In this document: positions 28,477 through 58,700 of the stretch, one piece after another
Numbering within the stretch: the first letter of the stretch is position 1
Layout: each line of letters opens with the position of its first letter
Source: Lysobacter sp. Root494
Lineage (GTDB): Bacteria; Pseudomonadota; Gammaproteobacteria; Xanthomonadales; Xanthomonadaceae
Reading direction: 5' to 3'
Length of the DNA: 64,000 nt
Assembly (NCBI RefSeq): GCF_001427225.1
Contig: NZ_LMFH01000008.1
Location: 248,001-312,000, forward strand
Position numbers and translations under genes: made by a program
The notes under the pieces: generated by a model
The model's input: only the letters and a program-made list of their open reading frames with translations
Databases searched by the model: none
What the model was told of the DNA's origin: nothing

Positions 28477-29136
28477 TCAGGCCGGCTTATCGGGCTGCAT
28501 TTCCGGACGCGCCAAGTCGAATGCGGACAGCTGCAGGCATGCCTGTTCGATCCGGGCGATCGTCGGAAACTGTGCCATGTCCACGGCGAAGCGGCGGGCG
28601 TTGTAGACCTGCGGAATCAGGCAGCAGTCCGCGATGGTGGGCATTTCGCCTTCGCAGTATTGGCCCGTCGAAAGGTGATCGTTGAGCATCGCCTCGATCG
28701 CGGCAAAACCTTCGCTGATCCAATGCCTCACCCAGACATCGCGTTCGGGCTGCGGCACGTTCCATTCGTGCTCGAAGTACTGCAGCACGCGCAGGTTGTT
28801 GAGCGGATGGACGTCGCAGGCAATCGCCAGCGCGATCGCACGCGCGCGGTGGCGCGAGCGCGCAGTTGCAGGAAGCAGCGGCCGAGTGGGCCAGGTTTCG
28901 TCGAGGTACTCGAGGATGGCCAGCGACTGACTCAGCTGGCGGCTACCGTGCTGCAGGACGGGCACCAGGGCCTGCGGATTGATCCGGTGGTATTCCGCGG
29001 TGCGCTGCTCGCCACCGTCGCGCAGCAAGTGGATGGGCAGGATCTCGTACGGCAACCCCTTCAGGTTGAGGCCGATCCGCACGCGATAAGCGGCGCTGGA
29101 ACGCCAATACGAATACAGCCGCAACTGATCGCTCAT
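28477..29136 (-). CDS. maiA: Maleylacetoacetate isomerase (zeta-class GST)
   Basis: A 219-residue GST-fold enzyme that isomerises maleylacetoacetate to fumarylacetoacetate with glutathione. The zeta-class active-site loop is visible as YWRSSAAYRVRIGLNLKG, with the NPQALVPVL and QSLAILEYLDE glutathione-site segments and DCCLIPQVYNARRF in the C-domain. The ATG at 29136 has GGAAG eight bases upstream. It lies 119 bases after fahA on the same strand, forming the lower part of tyrosine breakdown; hmgA and hppD are at 49.7-52.2 kb. Confidence 0.95.
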   Translation of the reverse strand: MSDQLRLYSYWRSSAAYRVRIGLNLKGLPYEILPIHLLRDGGEQRTAEYHRINPQALVPVLQHGSRQLSQSLAILEYLDETWPTRPLLPATARSRHRARAIALAIACDVHPLNNLRVLQYFEHEWNVPQPERDVWVRHWISEGFAAIEAMLNDHLSTGQYCEGEMPTIADCCLIPQVYNARRFAVDMAQFPTIARIEQACLQLSAFDLARPEMQPDKPA

Positions 29137-29255: not shown

Positions 29256-30242
29256 TCAGACCGGCTGCTTTTCCATGCGTTGTTCAATAGCGCCGAAGAG
29301 ATCCTGGCCGTCGCTAGTCTTCATTTCGATGCGCACGATGTCGCCGAACTTCATGAAGGGCGTGATCGGCTTGCCGGTCTCCAGCGTCTCGACCGTGCGG
29401 CGTTCCGCGAAGCAGGAGGCGCCCAGCTTCGTGTCCTCGTTCGCCACGGTGCCCGAACCGACGATCGTGCCCGCCGACAGCGGTCGCGTCTTCGCCGCAT
29501 GCGCGACGAGTTGCGCGAAGTTGAACTGCATGTCGACACCCGCTTCCGGCGCACCGAACCACTCGCCGTTGATGTGCGTGACCAGCGGCAGATGGACCTT
29601 GCTGTCGCGCCATGCGTCGCCGAGCTCGTCCGGCGTGACGAACACAGGCGAGAGCGCCGAGCGCGGCTTGGACTGCAGGAAGCCGAAGCCCTTGGCGAGT
29701 TCGCCGGGAATCAGGTTGCGCAGGCTGACGTCGTTGACGAGGCCGATCAACTGGACGTGCGCAGCAGCGGCTTCCGGCGTTACCGCCATCGGCACATCGT
29801 CGGTGACGATCACGACTTCGGCTTCCAGATCTATGCCGTAGTCCTCGCTCACCACGCGCACCGGATCGCGCGGGCCGTAGAAGCCGGCGCTGACGGCCTG
29901 GTACATGAGCGGATCGGTGTAGAAACTCTCCGGCACTTCGGCGCCGCGCGCGCGACGGACGCGCTCGACATGCGGCAGGTAGGCGCTGCCATCGACGAAT
30001 TCGTAGGCGCGCGGCAGCGGCGCGGCGAGTGCCTGCATGTCGAGATCGAAGGCGCCTTCGGCGGTGCCTTCGTGCAACGCATCCGACAACGTGTTCAGGC
30101 GGGGCGCGATGTTCGACCAGTCCTCCAGCGCGCGTTGCAGCGTGTCGGCGATTCCCGTTGCTTTCACTGCACGCTTCAGGTCTCGCGATACGACGATGAG
30201 AGTGCCGTCGCGACCGCCTTCCTTGAGGGAACCGAGCTTCAT
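29256..30242 (-). CDS. fahA: Fumarylacetoacetate hydrolase family protein
   Basis: A 328-residue FAH-family hydrolase. It has FVDGSAYLPHVERVRRAR, ESFYTDPLMYQAVSAGFYGP, the metal-site pattern DLEAEVVIVTDDVP, the NDVSLRNLIPGELAKGFGFLQSKP block, and SAGTIVGSGTV. The last step of tyrosine degradation gives fumarate and acetoacetate. GGAG lies five bases before the ATG. It precedes maiA on the same strand, so the pair is likely one operon. Confidence 0.93.
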   Translation of the reverse strand: MKLGSLKEGGRDGTLIVVSRDLKRAVKATGIADTLQRALEDWSNIAPRLNTLSDALHEGTAEGAFDLDMQALAAPLPRAYEFVDGSAYLPHVERVRRARGAEVPESFYTDPLMYQAVSAGFYGPRDPVRVVSEDYGIDLEAEVVIVTDDVPMAVTPEAAAAHVQLIGLVNDVSLRNLIPGELAKGFGFLQSKPRSALSPVFVTPDELGDAWRDSKVHLPLVTHINGEWFGAPEAGVDMQFNFAQLVAHAAKTRPLSAGTIVGSGTVANEDTKLGASCFAERRTVETLETGKPITPFMKFGDIVRIEMKTSDGQDLFGAIEQRMEKQPV

Positions 30243-30376
30243 GGGGACTCCGGATTTCTGCGCCGCAGCGCGATAGTTGCAATTGTAACTTGGCGTTTCG
30301 ATGTGCTGGAACGCTTGTGGCGGTCAGCTTATGTCGATCGCGCAGCGCTCCGCGCCGGATGCCCGGATCACGGGCA

Positions 30377-49682: not shown

Positions 49683-50975
49683 CTACTTCGGCGAGAAGTG
49701 CTTCTTCAACCCCGCCCAGCACGCCTGGTAGTCGCGTTGGCGATGCGCGGCGTCCAACGCCTGTTGCGTCGGCCGGATCACCGCGCGCGACTCGAACATG
49801 AAGGCCATGGTGTCCCCGATGACGTCCGGCTTCGAGAGGTCGGCGTTGCTCGCCTTCTCGAACGTCGCCGCATCCGGCCCGTGTCCCGTCATCGAGTTGT
49901 GCAGCGAGCAACCGCCGGGCGCGAAACCTTCCGCCTTCGCGTCGTACACGCCATGGATCAGGCCCATGAATTCGCTGGCGATGTTGCGGTGGAACCACGG
50001 CGGACGGAATGTGTCCTGCGCCACCAGCCAGCGCGGCGGGAAGATCACGAAATCCATGTTGCTGGTGCCCGGCGTGTCGCTGGGCGAATGCAGCACGAGG
50101 AAGATCGACGGATCCGGATGGTCGAAGCTGATCGAGCCGATCGTGTTGAAGCGGCGCAGGTCGTACTTGTACGGTGCGTAGTTGCCGTGCCAGCCGACGA
50201 CATCGAGCGGCGAATGGCCGATCGGCGCGCGCCAGAGATGGCCCTGGAATTTCGCGATCAGTTCGAACTCGCCATCGACATCTTCGAACGCCGCATTCGG
50301 CGCAAGGAAGTCGCGCGGATTGGCCAGGCCGTTCGAACCGATCGGCCCGAGATCGGGCAGGCGCAGCATCGCGCCGAAGTTCTCGCACACGTAACCGCGC
50401 GCTTCGCCGCCGGGCAGTTCGATGCGGAAGCGCACGCCACGCGGAATCACCGCGATTTCGTGCGGTTCCACGTCGAGCACGCCGAGTTCGGTGGCGATGT
50501 GCAGGCTTCCCTGCTGCGGAACGATCAGCAGCTCGCCGTCGGCGTCGTAGAAGAAGCGCCCCTGCATCGACTTGTTCGCCGCATACAGATGCACGCCGAT
50601 ACCCGTCTGCGCCGCGGGCGAACCGTTGCCCGCCATGGTGAAGAGTCCATCGACGAAATCGACCGGGGCCTGCGGCATCGGCAACGGACTCCAGCGCAGC
50701 TGGTCCGGCGTGATCGGCCCATCGCCGAAGTCGCTGTGAAAATGAGAGTGGAGGTACGGCGCGAACGTGCCGTGCATCGCTGCCGGACGAATGCGGTACA
50801 GCCAGCTGCGCCGGTTCAGGTGGCGCGGCGCGGTAAACGCCGTGCCGCTCAGTTGCTCCGCATACAGGCCGTGCGCGACGCGCTGCGGCGAGTTGCGGCC
50901 GATGGGCAGCGTGCCCGCGATCGCCTCCGTGGCGAACTCGTTGCCGAAACCGGATTGGTAGCCCGTCGATTTCAT
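49683..50975 (-). CDS. hmgA: Homogentisate 1,2-dioxygenase
   Basis: A 430-residue ring-cleaving enzyme. The iron ligands fall in [18 protein letters not shown] (His and Glu) and in [13 protein letters not shown] (His). The opening [13 protein letters not shown] and [15 protein letters not shown] are also family marks. It converts homogentisate to maleylacetoacetate. It follows hppD by 88 bases; the next steps (maiA, fahA) lie 20 kb away. Confidence 0.98.
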
Positions 50976-51063: not shown

Positions 51064-52179
51064 TTACAGCACGCCGCGCTTCATCTGGTCGCGCTCGATG
51101 CTCTCGAACAGCGCCTGGAAGTTGCCTTCGCCAAACCCTTCGTTGCCCTTGCGCTGGATGATCTCGAAGAAGATCGGGCCGATCGCGTTCTGGGTGAAGA
51201 TCTGCAGCAGCTTGCGCTGCTTGGTTTCGGCATCCGCGTCGATCAGGATCTTGTTCCTGCGCAGGCGCTCCACGTCCTCGCCATGGTCCGGCACGCGCTG
51301 GTCGATCACGTCGAAATACGTATCGGGCGTGTCGAGGAACTCCACGCCCTGCGCGCGCATGGCTTCCACCGTCCCGTAGATGTTGTCGGTGAAGCACGCG
51401 ATGTGCTGGATCCCCTCGCCCCTGTAGGCGTCGAGGTATTCGTTGATCTGCGACTTCGGATCGCTCGATTCGTTGAGTGGAATGCGGACGATGCCGTCCG
51501 GCGCGGTCATCGCCTTCGACACCAGGCCGGTCTTCGCACCCTTGATGTCGAAATAGCGGATCTCGCGGAAATTGAACAAACGCTCGTAATAGTCCGACCA
51601 CTTCTGCATGTTGCCGAAGTAGAGGTTGTGGGTGAGATGGTCGATGAAGGTCAGCCCGAACCCCTTCGGGTTCTGCTCGGCGCCCTGCACCGGCAGGTAG
51701 TCCTCGTACACGGTGCCGTTGTCGCCGTAGCGGTCGACCAGATAAAGCATGCAGTCGCCGATGCCCTTCACCACCGGCACATCGACCGCCTTGCTGTCGG
51801 CCTTGCCAGTGATCGCTTCGCCGCCGTTGCCGACGACCGTGTCGAACACGAGGCTCGCCGGCTTCTGGAAACGGATCGCGAAACCGCACGCGCACGGACC
51901 ATGCTTGGCAGCGAAGTCCGCCGCGAAGCTGTCCGGATCCTCGTTCACCAGGAAGTTGACCCCGCCCTGGCGATACACGGTGATGGGACGCGACTTGTGG
52001 TGCAGCACCGCGGTGAATCCCATCTTGCGGAAGTAGTCGTGCAGCATCTCGCCCTGGCCCGCGGGCGCGGCGAATTCGACGAACTCGAAGCCGTTGATGC
52101 CAAGCGGATTCTCGAAGGTGGTGACCTGCATGCCGAGGTTGGGACCGGCGCTGGTGGTTGAGGCGGTCTGGGGGCTCAT
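51064..52179 (-). CDS. hppD: 4-Hydroxyphenylpyruvate dioxygenase
   Basis: A 371-residue enzyme of two VOC-fold halves. The Fe(II) ligands are His181 (IDHLTHNLYFG), His259 (GIQHIACFTDNIYG) and Glu339 (GPIFFEIIQ). It makes homogentisate. The ATG at 52179 has AGGAG eight bases upstream; an in-frame start 14 codons earlier is less likely. A sigma70-like promoter with an operator in its spacer lies at 52242-52270. Confidence 0.98.
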   Translation of the reverse strand: MSPQTASTTSAGPNLGMQVTTFENPLGINGFEFVEFAAPAGQGEMLHDYFRKMGFTAVLHHKSRPITVYRQGGVNFLVNEDPDSFAADFAAKHGPCACGFAIRFQKPASLVFDTVVGNGGEAITGKADSKAVDVPVVKGIGDCMLYLVDRYGDNGTVYEDYLPVQGAEQNPKGFGLTFIDHLTHNLYFGNMQKWSDYYERLFNFREIRYFDIKGAKTGLVSKAMTAPDGIVRIPLNESSDPKSQINEYLDAYRGEGIQHIACFTDNIYGTVEAMRAQGVEFLDTPDTYFDVIDQRVPDHGEDVERLRRNKILIDADAETKQRKLLQIFTQNAIGPIFFEIIQRKGNEGFGEGNFQALFESIERDQMKRGVL

Positions 52180-52241
52180 GCGGAGGACTCCTGTTAACGT
52201 GGGACGTAACGGCACCCGCATCGGCGGGCGAAGCTTCCAAG

Positions 52242-52270
52242 ACTATAGTTTCATATGAAACCAACAACAA
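52242..52270 (-). promoter_or_regulatory. hppD promoter
   Basis: On the - strand TTGTTG (52270-52265) and TATAGT (52247-52242) are exactly 17 bases apart. The spacer contains the palindrome at 52248-52261. The expected start is near 52235, about 55 bases before the hppD ATG. Confidence 0.7.
52248..52261. promoter_or_regulatory. MarR operator, perfect 14-bp palindrome
   Basis: GTTTCATATGAAAC is its own reverse complement and lies between the -35 and -10 of hppD and over the ATG of marR (52255). It has the length of MarR-family sites. A bound regulator would block hppD and could also limit its own gene. Confidence 0.72.
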
Positions 52271-52800
52271 GCCACGATACCACCGGTGCTTCAGGCGCGG
52301 GCAACCCTCCATCGGGTCCGTCGAACGAACACGCCCACTGGGAACTGGACCGCTTCCTGCCGTACCGCCTGAGCATTCTGTCGAACCGGGTCAGCCAGAC
52401 GATTGCCGGCGCTTACGCCCGCCGTTTCGGATTAGGCGTGACGGAGTGGAGGGTGATCGCGGTGCTTGGCCGGTATCCGGGCCTGTCGGCGAACGGCGTA
52501 GCCGCGCGCACCGCGATGGACAAGGTAGCCGTGAGCCGCACCGTGGCCCGGCTGCTTGAGCGCGGCCTGCTCCAGCGCGACACGCATGACGACGACCGCC
52601 GCCGTTCGGTGCTGGAACTCAGCCGCGACGGGTATGGCATCTACGACGAAGTAGTTCCGGTCGCGCTCGAGTACGAACGCCGCCTGCTCGCGCCGCTCAA
52701 TGCCGAAGAACGCACCCAGCTCGACCTGTTGCTGCGCAAGCTCAACGAAGGCGTGGCGCAGCTGGACGTGGAGCCAGACACGCCCTTGCCTCGGGATTGA
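52255..52800 (+). CDS. MarR-family transcription regulator
   Basis: A 181-residue winged-helix protein: LPYRLSILSNRVSQTIAGAYARRF, then GVTEWRVIAVLGRYPGLSANGVAARTAMDKVAVSRTVARLLERGL and the wing DDDRRRSVLELS. It is divergent from hppD and very likely controls tyrosine catabolism. The N-terminal 25 residues are Ser/Gly/Thr-rich and poorly ordered. The ATG lies inside the operator and about 8 bases after a TATAG box, so the mRNA may be nearly leaderless, unless a later start is used. Confidence 0.9.
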   Translation: MKPTTSHDTTGASGAGNPPSGPSNEHAHWELDRFLPYRLSILSNRVSQTIAGAYARRFGLGVTEWRVIAVLGRYPGLSANGVAARTAMDKVAVSRTVARLLERGLLQRDTHDDDRRRSVLELSRDGYGIYDEVVPVALEYERRLLAPLNAEERTQLDLLLRKLNEGVAQLDVEPDTPLPRD

Positions 52801-52911: not shown

Positions 52912-52981
52912 ATCCCCGCTTTCGCGGGGATGACGATTCCGCAATGCTGGGCCCGCAAAGCGGGCCCGGGCGGAATCGTCA
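52912..52981. repeat. Nested inverted repeats at the end of the POT transporter gene
   Basis: An ATCCCCGC-TTTC-GCGGGGAT hairpin (52912-52931) is followed by a second, larger inverted repeat: arms TGACGATTCCGC (52931-52942) and GCGGAATCGTCA (52970-52981) enclosing GGGCCCGC-AAA-GCGGGCCC. The last three bases are the transporter's TGA stop on the - strand. The first hairpin is the kind of short dispersed repeat that reads as VIPAKAGI when translated. Confidence 0.65.
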
Positions 52982-54496
52982 CTTCACCCCATGCATCAAC
53001 CGCTGGATCAGCGGCGCGATCAGGAAGAGGAACGCGCCTGATCCGACCAGCACCCAGAAGCCGAAGGTGTAACCGGACAGCGCCGACTGCACGTTCATGC
53101 CGGTCTCGCCGCTGACGTGGCTGGCGAAGATGCCGGACAGGTTGTTGCCGATCGCAGTCGACAGGAACCAGCCGCCCATGCCGAAGCCGACGAGCCGCAC
53201 CGGAGCCAGCTTCGTCACCATCGACAGGCCGATCGGCGACAGGCACAACTCGCCCACCGACTGGATCACGTAGACCATGAAGAGCGTCCAGAACGGGATC
53301 AGTCCCGCCGGCGAGACCAGCTTCGTCAGCGCGAACATCAGCAGCAGGAACGCCAGCCCGTTGAAAATGATGCCCAGGCCGAACTTGCGCGGGATCGACG
53401 GATTCGCCCGGCCCATGCGCACCCAGATCCAGGCGATCACCGGCGCCAGCGTGATGATCGCCAGCGAGTTCACCGACTGGAACCAGCCCACCGGGAAGAT
53501 CCAGCCGCTGAAGTCGCGGTCGACGATGTTCTGGGCGAGGAAGTTGAAGGAGCTGCCCGCCTGTTCGAAGAACATCCAGAACAGCACGTTGAACACGAAG
53601 ATGATCAGCATCGCGATCGCCTTGTCGCGCTGCACCGCGCCTTCGCTGAAACCCTCGCGCAGGATCAGCACGCACAGGCCGACGAACAGCGCGCTCAGGA
53701 TCCACTGCAGCTTGCTGGCGTCGATCGCCAGCAGCGAGTAGATCACCGGGATCGAGACGAGCACGCCGGCCAGCACATACAGCACCTTGCGCTTGTCGCC
53801 CTGGCCACCGGTGGCTTCCTCGAGCGGGCGGCCGATGCCCTGCAGCTGGCGGCGTCCGAACCAGAACCACACCAGGCTGACGATCATGCCGATGCCCGAG
53901 GCGATGAACACGACCTTGTACGCCGGCATGTCCGGCGAGCCGCCGAACATGCGCTCGGCCAGCCAGCCGGTCAGGATCGGCGCGATGAACGCACCGGCAT
54001 TGATACCCATGTAGAACAGGGTGAAGCCGGAATCGCGGCGGCCGTCCTCGGGCGAGTACAGCTTGCCGACCATGGTCGAGATGTTCGGCTTGAACAGGCC
54101 GTTGCCCGCGATGACCGTCGCCAGGCCGAGCTTGAACACCTGCTCACTGGGCACCGTGATCATGAAGAGGCCCGCGGCCATGACCACCGCCCCGAGCAGG
54201 ATCGAACGCTGGTAGCCGAGCACCCGGTCCGCGACATAGCCACCGAACAACGCGGCGGCGTACACCAGCGCCAGGTAGGCACCGTACAAGCGGCTCGCGG
54301 GCGCCTCGCCCGCGCTGTCGCCGTGATAGAACTGCGCCACGATGTACAGGGCCAGCGCCCAGCGCATGCCGTAGAACGCGAAGCGCTCCCAGAACTCGGT
54401 CATGAAGAGCATCCACAGCGGACGCGGATGGCCCATCACCTGCTTGAAGTCCGGGATAGGAGCGCCCGGTGTTGTCGTGCTTGCGGCACCGCTCAT
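52979..54496 (-). CDS. POT/PTR family peptide MFS transporter
   Basis: A 505-residue, 12-plus-helix proton-coupled oligopeptide transporter. It has FWERFAFYGMRWALALYI (the ExxERFxYY-type opening), GGYVADRVLGYQR, GNGLFKPNISTMVG, FTLFYMGINAGAF and ELCLSPIGLSMVTKLAP. It imports di- or tripeptides. The ATG at 54496 follows GGGGGAAAA. A TTGACG promoter lies at 54558-54586. Confidence 0.93.
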   Translation of the reverse strand: MSGAASTTTPGAPIPDFKQVMGHPRPLWMLFMTEFWERFAFYGMRWALALYIVAQFYHGDSAGEAPASRLYGAYLALVYAAALFGGYVADRVLGYQRSILLGAVVMAAGLFMITVPSEQVFKLGLATVIAGNGLFKPNISTMVGKLYSPEDGRRDSGFTLFYMGINAGAFIAPILTGWLAERMFGGSPDMPAYKVVFIASGIGMIVSLVWFWFGRRQLQGIGRPLEEATGGQGDKRKVLYVLAGVLVSIPVIYSLLAIDASKLQWILSALFVGLCVLILREGFSEGAVQRDKAIAMLIIFVFNVLFWMFFEQAGSSFNFLAQNIVDRDFSGWIFPVGWFQSVNSLAIITLAPVIAWIWVRMGRANPSIPRKFGLGIIFNGLAFLLLMFALTKLVSPAGLIPFWTLFMVYVIQSVGELCLSPIGLSMVTKLAPVRLVGFGMGGWFLSTAIGNNLSGIFASHVSGETGMNVQSALSGYTFGFWVLVGSGAFLFLIAPLIQRLMHGVK

Positions 54497-54557
54497 GCGG
54501 TTTTCCCCCGTCGAAGTTGAATCAGAAAAGCCCGGCGCGGTGCGCGGGGACGGGCGA

Positions 54558-54586
54558 GGATTACCGACGGTAGCGGCGCGCGTCAA
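54558..54586 (-). promoter_or_regulatory. Predicted promoter of the POT transporter
   Basis: TTGACG (54586-54581) and TAATCC (54563-54558) are 17 bases apart on the - strand, about 62 bases before the ATG. The -35 is strong, the -10 weak. Confidence 0.5.
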
Positions 54587-54679: not shown

Positions 54680-55573
54680 TCAGGCCGCCGGAGCGGTTCC
54701 GCCCGGACCGTAGCTGGCCCCTGGTCCGATCGCCGTACGCACTTCGAACAGCTCCGGAAAGAACGTGAGCTCCAGTGCCTGCTTCAGGAAGCCGACACCG
54801 GACGATCCGCCCGTGCCGCGCTTGAAGCCGATGATCCGCAGCACCGTGCGCATGTGGCGGAAGCGCCACAGCTGGAACTGGGTTTCGAGGTCCACGAAGT
54901 CCTCGCACAGCGAGTACTCGCGCCAATAGCGGCCGGTGTCCTCGTAGATGCGTTCGAACACGTGCACCAGCGCGGGATCGGACACGTGCGGCTTCGACCA
55001 GTCGCGCTCGCGCTGCGTCGCGGGCACGTCATGGCCCCAGCGCGCGAGATAGATGAGGAACTCGTCGTACAGGCTCGGCGCTTCCAGCACGTCCTTCAGC
55101 GCGGCGTGCCCCGCTTCGTCGTGCGCAAACACCTTGAGCATCTGCGCGTTCTTGTTGCCCAGCAGGAATTCGATGGTGCGGTACTGCAGCGACTGGAAGC
55201 CCGACGACGGGCCGAGCACATCGCGGAACTCCATGTACTCCGACGGCGTCAGCGTCTCCAGCACCGACCACGCAGCGGTCAGTTGGTCGAGCACACGCTT
55301 GCAGCGCGCCAACACCTTGCGGCACTGCCAGACCTCGTCGGCGCGCAGGTAGACGATCGCCGCACGCAGCTCGTGGATCATCAGCTTCATCCACAGCTCC
55401 GAGACCTGGTGCTGGACGATGAAGAGCATCTCGTCGTGGTGCGCCGGATCCGAGAGCGGATGCTGCGCCGACAGCAGGCGGTTGAGCTGCAGGTAGCCGC
55501 CGTAGGTCATCCGTCCGGACAGGTCGGTGTGGATGCCGGATTCGAGGTCGCGCTGGTTCTTGTCGACGGTCAT
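54680..55573 (-). CDS. kynA: Tryptophan 2,3-dioxygenase
   Basis: A 297-residue haem enzyme of normal length, converting tryptophan to N-formylkynurenine. It has [62 protein letters not shown], and [21 protein letters not shown], whose histidine is the haem ligand. It stands alone here without the other kynurenine genes. It is divergent from the nuclease-like gene. Confidence 0.97.
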
Positions 55574-55749
55574 GGGCGAAGCCTGTGCGGGGCGCAAAGG
55601 GTACCGCATCGCTCCTGCGGCCCCGGCGGTGTGCACTGCGTCATGCCCGTGCAACGCAGCCGTGGATAATGGCCGCACATTGCGCCGTATCCGGGCAATC
55701 AACGCGCCGCCTTGGGCCGGGCAGGTGCATCGACACAACGGGGAAGACC

Positions 55750-58700
55750 ATGACACCACGTGCTCGCGGCATCGCCGCGCTGCTTGCGTTGGCCCTCGCG
55801 GGCACCGCGCATGCGGATTGCATCAGCATCACCGGCCCGGCGTATGGGCAGGACTTCGACTCGCTCGCCTCGAGCGGCACGTCCTCGACCTTGCCGGCCG
55901 GCTGGGCCATTCGCGAAACCGGCACCAGTGGCAATGCCAACGGCCTGTACGCGGCCGGCGACGGCAGCGGCACCGCCGGCGACACCTACAGCTTCGGCAC
56001 CGGCGGAACTCCGCCCTCCGGCGAACGCGCGCTGGGCACGCTGCGCAGCGGTACGCTGCTGCCGACGCTCGGCGCCTGCTTCGTGAACAACACCGGGGCG
56101 ACCATCGATGCCCTCGACGTTGCCTACATCGGCGAGCAGTGGCGCCTGGGCGCGCTCGCTCGCGGCGCCGACCGCCTCGACTTCCAGTACAGCCTCAATG
56201 CCACCAGCCTCGCGGATGGCAGCTGGACCGATGCGAACGCGCTCGACTTCAGCACGCCGAACCTGAGCGGCACCAGCGCCGGCGCGCGCAAGGGCAACGA
56301 CGCCGAAAACCGCGCCGCAATCAGCGGCACGCTGTCGACGCTGGCCCTGCCCGTCGGCGGCATCCTGTGGATCCGCTGGAACGACTTCGACGCCAGCAGT
56401 TCCGACGACGGCCTGGCGATCGACGATTTCATCATCGGCCTGCCCGGCGCCGGGATCCCCCCAAAGCTGAAGATCAGCGATGCCATTGCCGACGAAGGCG
56501 ATGCCGGCATCACGCCGCTGTTCTTCAGCTTCACCCTCAACAAGCCCGCGGGCGCCGGTGGCGTGGTCATCGAATACGCCACGCGCGACATCAGCGCGAC
56601 GGCGGGCAGCGATTACACCGCCACAACCGCCAGCGTGACCATTCCCGAAGGCGAGACTTCGGTCGTCGTCTCGGTCGACATGCTCGGCGACACCGCGCAG
56701 GAGAACGACGAAACGTTCGCCGTCGACGTGGTCGGCGTCACCGGCGTCGCGATCGAGGACGGCACCGGCATCGGCACGATCCGCAGCGACGACCTCGTGA
56801 TCACGCCGATCCACGACATCCAGGGCAACGGCGCGACTTCGCCGCTGGCGAACCAGTTCGTCAACGTCATCGGCATCGTCACCGGGCGCAAGGGCAACGG
56901 CTTCTTCCTGCAGGCCAGCGATGCCGAAGCCGACGCCGATCCGTTCACCTCCGAAGGCGTGCTGGTGTTCACCGGCGCCGCGCCGTCAGCCGAGGCCGCA
57001 GTCGGCAATCGCGTGCGCGTGCGCGGCACGGTGGTCGAGTTCGCGCGTCCCGGCCAGCTGCCGATCACCGAAATCAGCGGCAGCCCGTCGGTCGTGCGGC
57101 TTTCGAGCGGCCATGCGCTGCCCTCGCCGGTTCCCCTGGCGCCGGAGATGACGGATCCCGCCGGCGGCTTCGGCCAGCTGGAAGCGCTGGAAGGCATGCG
57201 CGTCACCGGCAGCCTGACCACGGTCGCGGCCAGCGATGGCTTCAAGACGCCCTACAACGCCACCGGCGGCATCAACGGCATCCTGCGGGCCGTGATCACC
57301 GGCATCGCGCGTCCGTTCCGCGAACCGGGCATCTCGGTACTAGATCCGATTCCGGCTGGTGGCACTTCGCCGCCGATCCCACGCTGGGACGGCAATCCGG
57401 AAATCATCACCATCGACAGCGACACGCTCGCCGCCAGCGCCGGGCTCAACGGTGCGACGTACCAGCTCGACCTGCCGGCCGGTAGCGTGATCGAAGGCCT
57501 CACTGGTCCGCTCGACTACGACTTCGGCCGCTACACGCTGCACCGCGATCCGATGGTGCCGATCAACGTGACGGCGATGCCGCAACCACGCGCCGCGCGC
57601 GCCCCTTCGGCGAACGAGTTCACCGTCGCCGGGTACAACATGGAGCGTTTCTACGACACGATCGCCGACGCCAACGTCGACGATGACGTCGCCAGTACCA
57701 CTGCGTACGCCACGCGCCTGCGCAAGGCCTCGCTGGGCATCCGCGACTACCTGCATGCGCCCGACGTCCTCGTCGCCATCGAGATCGAGAACCTCCGTGT
57801 GCTCGAAGCGGTGGCCGCGAAGGTGAATGCCGATGCCGTCGCCGCGGGCCAGCCGGATCCGCAGTACGTCGCGCATCTCATCGAAGGCCACGATATCGGC
57901 GGCATCGACGTCGGCGTGCTGGTGAAGTCCGCGCCGGTCGCGAGCGGCAAGCCGCGCGTGGGAGCGGTGTCGGTGTCGCAGCCGGATACCGATCCGTTCT
58001 TCGAGCCGGATCGCTACCTCAACGATCGTCCGCCACTCATCCTCAACGCCGTGGTGAATTACGACGATGGCCGCGCGTTCCCGATCACGGTGATCGGCGT
58101 GCACCAGCGTTCGTTCAACGACACGGAACTCGACGACGCGTCGGGCGAACGCGCGCGCCGCAAGCGCCTGGAGCAGGCGAAGTTCCTCGCCGCCGAAGTG
58201 CAGAAGATCCAGTCCGCGTCGCCGTCCACGCGCGTCGTGGTGCTGGGCGACTTCAACGCCCTCGCGTTCAACGATGGGCTGGGCGACATCATGGGCGTCA
58301 CCGCGGGCACGCCGGTCCCCGACGAGGAAACCGTCACGCCGGGCGACGGCGTGGACCTGGTCGATCCCGACCTGCTCAACCTCGGCGAACTGCTGCCGCC
58401 GTCCGAACGCTATTCGTATTCGTTCGACGGCCAGGCGCAGACGCTTGACCACGTGCTGGTGAATGAGGAACTGGTCGTCACCACGCGCGCCGCGTCGGTC
58501 GACCACGCGCGCATCAACGCCGACTTCACCGATACGAACCGCAGCGATGCGAATACGCCGACGCGCATGGCCGACCACGATCCGGTGATCGCATATTTCG
58601 ATCCGCGTCCGGTGGCCGATCTCGCGATCACGGCGATGGCCAACAGTGCAGTGGTTCCGGTCGACGGCACCCTCGCGTTTACCGCGACCGTGCACAACAA

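Follow-up and report, generated by a model that had tools for sequence, protein, structure and literature searches.

The hppD-marR locus

The analysed window is a stretch of 64,000 nucleotides of Lysobacter sp. Root494 (contig NZ_LMFH01000008.1, positions 248,001 to 312,000), in which the gene of 4-hydroxyphenylpyruvate dioxygenase, hppD (51064..52179, minus strand; TIGR01263 387.6 bits, cut-off 277), and the gene of a MarR-family regulator of 181 amino acids, here called marR (52255..52800, plus strand), lie back to back. The gene of homogentisate 1,2-dioxygenase, hmgA (49683..50975, minus strand; TIGR01015 677 bits), is found 88 bp downstream of hppD, and the two are likely carried on one transcript. 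Between hppD and marR there is a 14-bp perfect palindrome, GTTTCATATGAAAC (52248-52261), which forms the core of a longer element, ATAGTTTCATATGAAACCAA (52245..52264, without strand), referred to below as operator O1. The MarR protein very probably binds here; it is predicted to be a repressor governing the breakdown of tyrosine and also marR itself.

The hppD gene (ATG at 52179) is preceded at a distance of 8 nt by the Shine-Dalgarno sequence AGGAG (52188..52192, minus strand). Further upstream on the same strand its predicted promoter consists of the -35 hexamer TTGTTG (52270-52265), a 17-bp spacer holding GTTTCATATGAAAC and the -10 hexamer TATAGT (52247-52242). A sequence-only reading of this DNA had already placed the palindrome inside the spacer and over the ATG of marR (52255), and both placements are borne out by the sequence. 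The perfection of the palindrome was rejected as evidence, 16 perfect palindromes of at least 14 bp being present in the window against a mean of 11.35 in Markov-1 sequences. Because such palindromes are common and a strict promoter scan is empty, the argument rests on comparison with other genomes.

Conservation of the predicted operator

The regulator is encoded in 240 of 247 genomes of the family and in 131 of the 151 genomes sampled from the order; the named genomes with related loci include Vulcaniibacterium, Luteimonas, Pseudoxanthomonas and alphaproteobacteria. For the comparison 146 non-redundant divergent hppD/marR loci were collected from ten families of the order and from other classes, including some alphaproteobacteria; many of them are close relatives, hence they do not amount to 146 independent observations. 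When aligned, they show TATAGTTTCAnnTGAAACCA and then TGCAAG, at one and the same position relative to the promoter. The site is present in all 146 loci with scores of 13-18 out of 18, against a mode of 9 in shuffled intergenic DNA, and its conservation across the family far exceeds chance. The conserved blocks are the operator, the TATA and the hppD -35 at 17 bp, where the CAAG represents the -35 hexamer (TTGCAA in most relatives, TTGTTG in the Lysobacter genus here) at a constant offset; the bases at the two central positions vary freely, and conservation does not extend to the flank on the side of hppD. The operator site is ancient and ordinary in kind.

The motif could have been conserved merely as the core promoter of hppD, with MarR binding elsewhere, and it is true that TATA and the -35 hexamer lie within or beside it. 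The symmetric halves GTTTCA/TGAAAC are located, however, in the spacer, where promoters need no set sequence, and the motif is lost at hppD genes without marR and recurs before fahA (see below), which makes this explanation very improbable. The loss could be followed in the sampled genomes without detectable marR, 19 of 27 of which retain hppD. In 14 hppD loci from such genomes the best site scored only 9-11, that is at background (one of these loci, L216, is poorly anchored and another, L224, offers only 125 bp for scanning), whereas six control loci with marR reached 13-17. The motif therefore follows the regulator and not hppD.

Being self-complementary, the palindrome might also act at the RNA level, as a hairpin in the transcript of marR or of hppD. 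The predicted hppD transcript begins downstream of it, the predicted marR transcript contains no more than half of it, and invariant half sites around a free centre suit a protein dimer, so that the probability of a hairpin is close to nil. The proposal of the sequence-only reading that one MarR dimer would span both the hppD promoter and the marR start is well supported by these comparisons: the site takes the same place in all the divergent loci, is absent at hppD without marR and is repeated once in the genome, before fahA-maiA. On this evidence the site exists as described, and there is strong support for regarding it as an operator.

Some related loci show other arrangements. In some alphaproteobacteria, namely Rhodospira, Caenispirillum and Roseospira (L112, L119, L124), it is hmgA and not hppD from which marR and the operator diverge. 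Nine further loci (L114, L118, L120-L123, L125, L126, L139) have a related marR downstream of hmgA, and near the start of this marR no copy of the motif could be recognised, possibly owing to a different operator or arrangement. In two loci of other gammaproteobacteria (L194, L200) marR comes after hmgA in the same orientation, the motif standing about 100 bp before hmgA. Finally, L192 and L193 carry TTCGTTTCATTTGCAACTAT about 640-680 bp past the start of a related marR, and neither hppD nor hmgA was found nearby.

A second predicted operator before fahA-maiA

In two genomes a second near-match was found 31-50 nt before a gene of the fumarylacetoacetate hydrolase family, and the window shows the same layout. 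This site, operator O2 (CAAGTTACAATTGCAACTAT, 30273..30292, minus strand; core GTTACAATTGCAAC, 30276-30289), lies 31-50 nt upstream of the ATG of fahA (29256..30242, minus strand), the product of which is a close homologue of the L095/L096 proteins with PF01557 and PF18288 (G000 match, 86% identity). Directly downstream is maiA, the gene of maleylacetoacetate isomerase (28477..29136, minus strand; TIGR01262 300 bits, cut-off 171). An O2-like site with a score of at least 12 occupies the same place in 23 of 31 distinct fahA loci of the family, and only 1 of 640 shuffles was as good. In the 8 loci without the site a TACAAT element resembling a -10 hexamer is often retained. O2 formed no part of the sequence-only reading.

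The window contains no further copy of GTTTCATATGAAAC with up to two mismatches, and no other exact copy is present in the genome. Three other genome sites with two mismatches (L002-L004; L105-L107) adjoin no recognised pathway gene and were taken as chance. A phylum-wide sample of 398 genomes yielded the strict form of the O1 motif in only 2, both Xanthomonadaceae. These figures bear on the idea that the palindrome is bound by another regulator, TyrR-like or a global factor, next to which MarR is incidental. The contact between MarR and this DNA is a prediction, which leaves room for such a factor; the site and marR co-occur, however, locus by locus over families and classes, one or two sites per genome suit a local regulator, and the strict motif is missing from 396 of the 398 genomes. 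Another regulator is accordingly very unlikely, and binding by the local MarR is preferred.

As regards the other neighbours, a POT-family peptide transporter gene (52979-54586, minus strand) adjoins the marR region, and a tryptophan 2,3-dioxygenase-like gene (54680-55759, minus strand) is located near marR, with 379.5 bits just under the curated cut-off of 390.7.

Start codon of marR

The start codon of marR lies inside O1. The operator itself forms an in-frame TAG stop (52246..52248, plus strand) two codons before this ATG, and besides the ATG at 52255 no ATG, GTG or TTG occurs between the stop and the MarR domain; the start of marR is therefore the operator ATG, barring use of a non-canonical codon. 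This ATG is not preceded by a Shine-Dalgarno sequence. As ACTATAGT (52242-52249) is itself palindromic, TATAGT can be read on the plus strand as well (52244..52249), where it would serve as the -10 element of marR, ending 5 nt before the ATG. Leaderless genes are marked by a missing Shine-Dalgarno sequence and by a -10 element close ahead of the ATG. Both marks are present here, and a leaderless or nearly leaderless marR messenger RNA (mRNA), as the sequence-only reading had suspected, is plausible.

In the relatives the situation is different. A canonical start follows the operator in 138 of the 146 loci, most often 29-30 nt from the operator centre. The remaining eight, namely three genomes of the genus and five Rhodospirillales-like loci (L130-L133, L140), have no later canonical start; in the latter five the protein begins with MKP and the domain is reached within about ten to twenty residues. 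In 27 further loci a start codon within the operator is in an open frame with marR, and another start follows. A normal leader and a marR start far downstream would have spoken against the sequence-only reading; for canonical codons this is excluded in the genus, and it is the rule in most relatives. Since most relatives start downstream, the overlap of start codon and operator is a derived state, present in at least two distant lineages. In E. coli there are messenger RNAs that have a leadered start besides an AUG at the 5' end (PMC4965119), and by analogy the same may apply to the 27 loci with two starts.

It has to be considered that marR starts at a non-canonical downstream codon (e.g. CTG at codon 31) or has a leadered mRNA, the operator ATG being a by-product. 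This alternative concerns the start codon only. It draws on the 27 loci that have an open in-frame operator start yet also a later one, and on the 30 N-terminal residues, which are predicted to be unstructured and change fast among L005, L006 and L007. The three genomes of the genus and the five Rhodospirillales-like loci, on the other hand, offer no canonical alternative before the domain, and in four of these five loci about ten residues separate this ATG from the domain. A downstream or leadered start is consequently rather unlikely, though it deserves more weight than any of the explanations discussed above. With the operator ATG as the start, TAGTTTCA-N-ATGAAACC would provide an in-frame stop, a start codon and the Met-Lys-Pro codons, so that the repressor site would double as the place where translation of the repressor begins; this is somewhat favoured over its negation. 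With the same slight preference it can be proposed that recognition, the -10 element and leaderless initiation are encoded within one 20-bp element in the genus and in the Rhodospirillales-like group.

The regulator protein

The MarR domain of the protein was recognised by PF12802 (MarR_2, E=2.5e-14) and, above cut-off, by PF01047, while the NCBIfam equivalogs HpaR, MprA/EmrR, SlyA and MarR all remained far below their cut-offs (HpaR 36 against 121 bits). Its predicted structure has a mean predicted local distance difference test (pLDDT) score of 85.8, with low values in the first 30 residues, and the model matches PDB entry 2FA5, which is the best sequence and fold match and the nearest solved structure (E=1.2e-44). 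The protein of locus L102, which is divergent to hppD and has the operator, is nearly identical to that of 2FA5, presumably XC1739. Under this name the Xanthomonas campestris protein appears in a reference of PMC3448645 to Chin et al. (2006), where it is a putative antibiotic-resistance repressor. XC1739 falls into the same orthologue group as the window MarR and shares its gene neighbourhood through L102; it appears to be an orthologue and so a regulator of tyrosine catabolism. In those parts of the literature that the search covered no operator or pathway assignment of XC1739 was found.

The recognition region (TAMDKVAVSR) is nearly invariant in 143 proteins, of which 142 have S47 and all have R66. 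The counterparts of these two residues in an alignment with MarR_73, S28 and R46, coordinate the ligand carboxylate in that auxin-responsive protein (PMC9613470). As both carboxylate-contact residues are conserved, the effector of the window MarR is likely an aromatic acid.

Proposed mechanism

Taken as a whole, the locus is with high probability under a homogentisate-pathway MarR autorepressor with operators O1 and O2, an aromatic-acid inducer from the pathway and a near-leaderless marR mRNA. A promoter palindrome of 16-20 bp bound by a dimer is a mark of the MarR family, and a conserved palindrome is present here. When the inducer is absent, the MarR dimer would occupy about 20 bp filling the spacer of the hppD promoter and touching its -10 element, and hppD-hmgA would be blocked. 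MarR would also limit its own synthesis, because the same 20 bp contain the predicted -10 element and the start codon of marR. The weaker O2 would place the last two enzymes of the pathway, encoded by fahA-maiA, under the same control, and the repressor would be released probably by 4-hydroxyphenylpyruvate or homogentisate. In this genus marR would start at the ATG in the operator centre, which predicts an mRNA with no leader or almost none.

Several points weigh against this proposal. A strict sigma-70 scan did not call the hppD promoter, no promoter being found at the strict threshold; its support is the conserved -35 hexamer together with TATA at constant spacing. No plus-strand -35 element for marR is conserved across the 146 loci, and the marR promoter is weakly defined for that reason. 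O2 is further from the consensus than O1 and is absent from 8 of the 31 fahA loci of the family. The degenerate motif GTTWCANNTGMAAC, which occurs in exactly two places of the 3.44-Mb genome, both before homogentisate-pathway genes, was composed once both sites were known. The regulator is also dispensable for the pathway, as the marR-less genomes that keep hppD demonstrate. The sites, their positions and conservation, their co-occurrence with marR and the fixed start codon were computed; MarR binding, the direction of control, the inducer and the transcription start are inferred from them.

Relation to known regulators and significance

The closest published prediction is HmgS, a MarR-family protein described by Leyn et al. 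(2016, PMC5343134) as the predicted regulator of hmgAB in Alteromonadales/Pseudoalteromonadales. Both regulators are local, belong to the homogentisate pathway and were predicted on the basis of conserved sites, and the window likewise combines a MarR protein with predicted sites at homogentisate genes (hppD-hmgA and fahA-maiA); HmgS differs in resting on 6 sites in 3 genomes of one taxon from another lineage. CrtR of Corynebacterium glutamicum (PMC5401885) is also a divergent MarR repressor of the neighbouring operon and of itself, with possibly one site per genome and a leaderless transcript of its own, but it serves a carotenoid pathway, responds to isoprenoid pyrophosphates and recognises a short TTAA motif, and a start codon inside its operator is not described. 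AcuR of Rhodobacter sphaeroides (PMC3017554) has a proven leaderless repressor mRNA with low translation and a pathway product as inducer; it is, however, a TetR-family protein and its operator lies upstream of the start codon, not over it. Further leaderless repressor genes cited in that source are lambda cI and tetR of Tn1721. MarR_73/IadR of Variovorax paradoxus (PMC9613470) resembles the window MarR as a ligand-released repressor of aromatic-acid degradation with the matching residues given above, whereas its pathway is auxin degradation, its identity is about 30% and its operator is another one.

A literature search for MarR proteins with hppD or hmgA, Xanthomonas included, found no study of this regulator. 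The regulator is of a known kind, a local MarR repressor of an aromatic-acid pathway, probably under its own control; what is new, as far as was searched, is the breadth of its distribution, its operator, fahA-maiA as a target and the connection with XC1739.

Homogentisate is the precursor of pyomelanin, and its likely control in Xanthomonadaceae and their relatives can now be explained. A widespread group of MarR proteins gains an operator, a predicted regulon of two operons and a likely class of ligand, and this group includes a protein with a crystal structure published in 2006 under a guessed role in antibiotic resistance. The natural series from a leadered start to a start inside the operator would moreover offer a route to study the origin of leaderless repressor genes.
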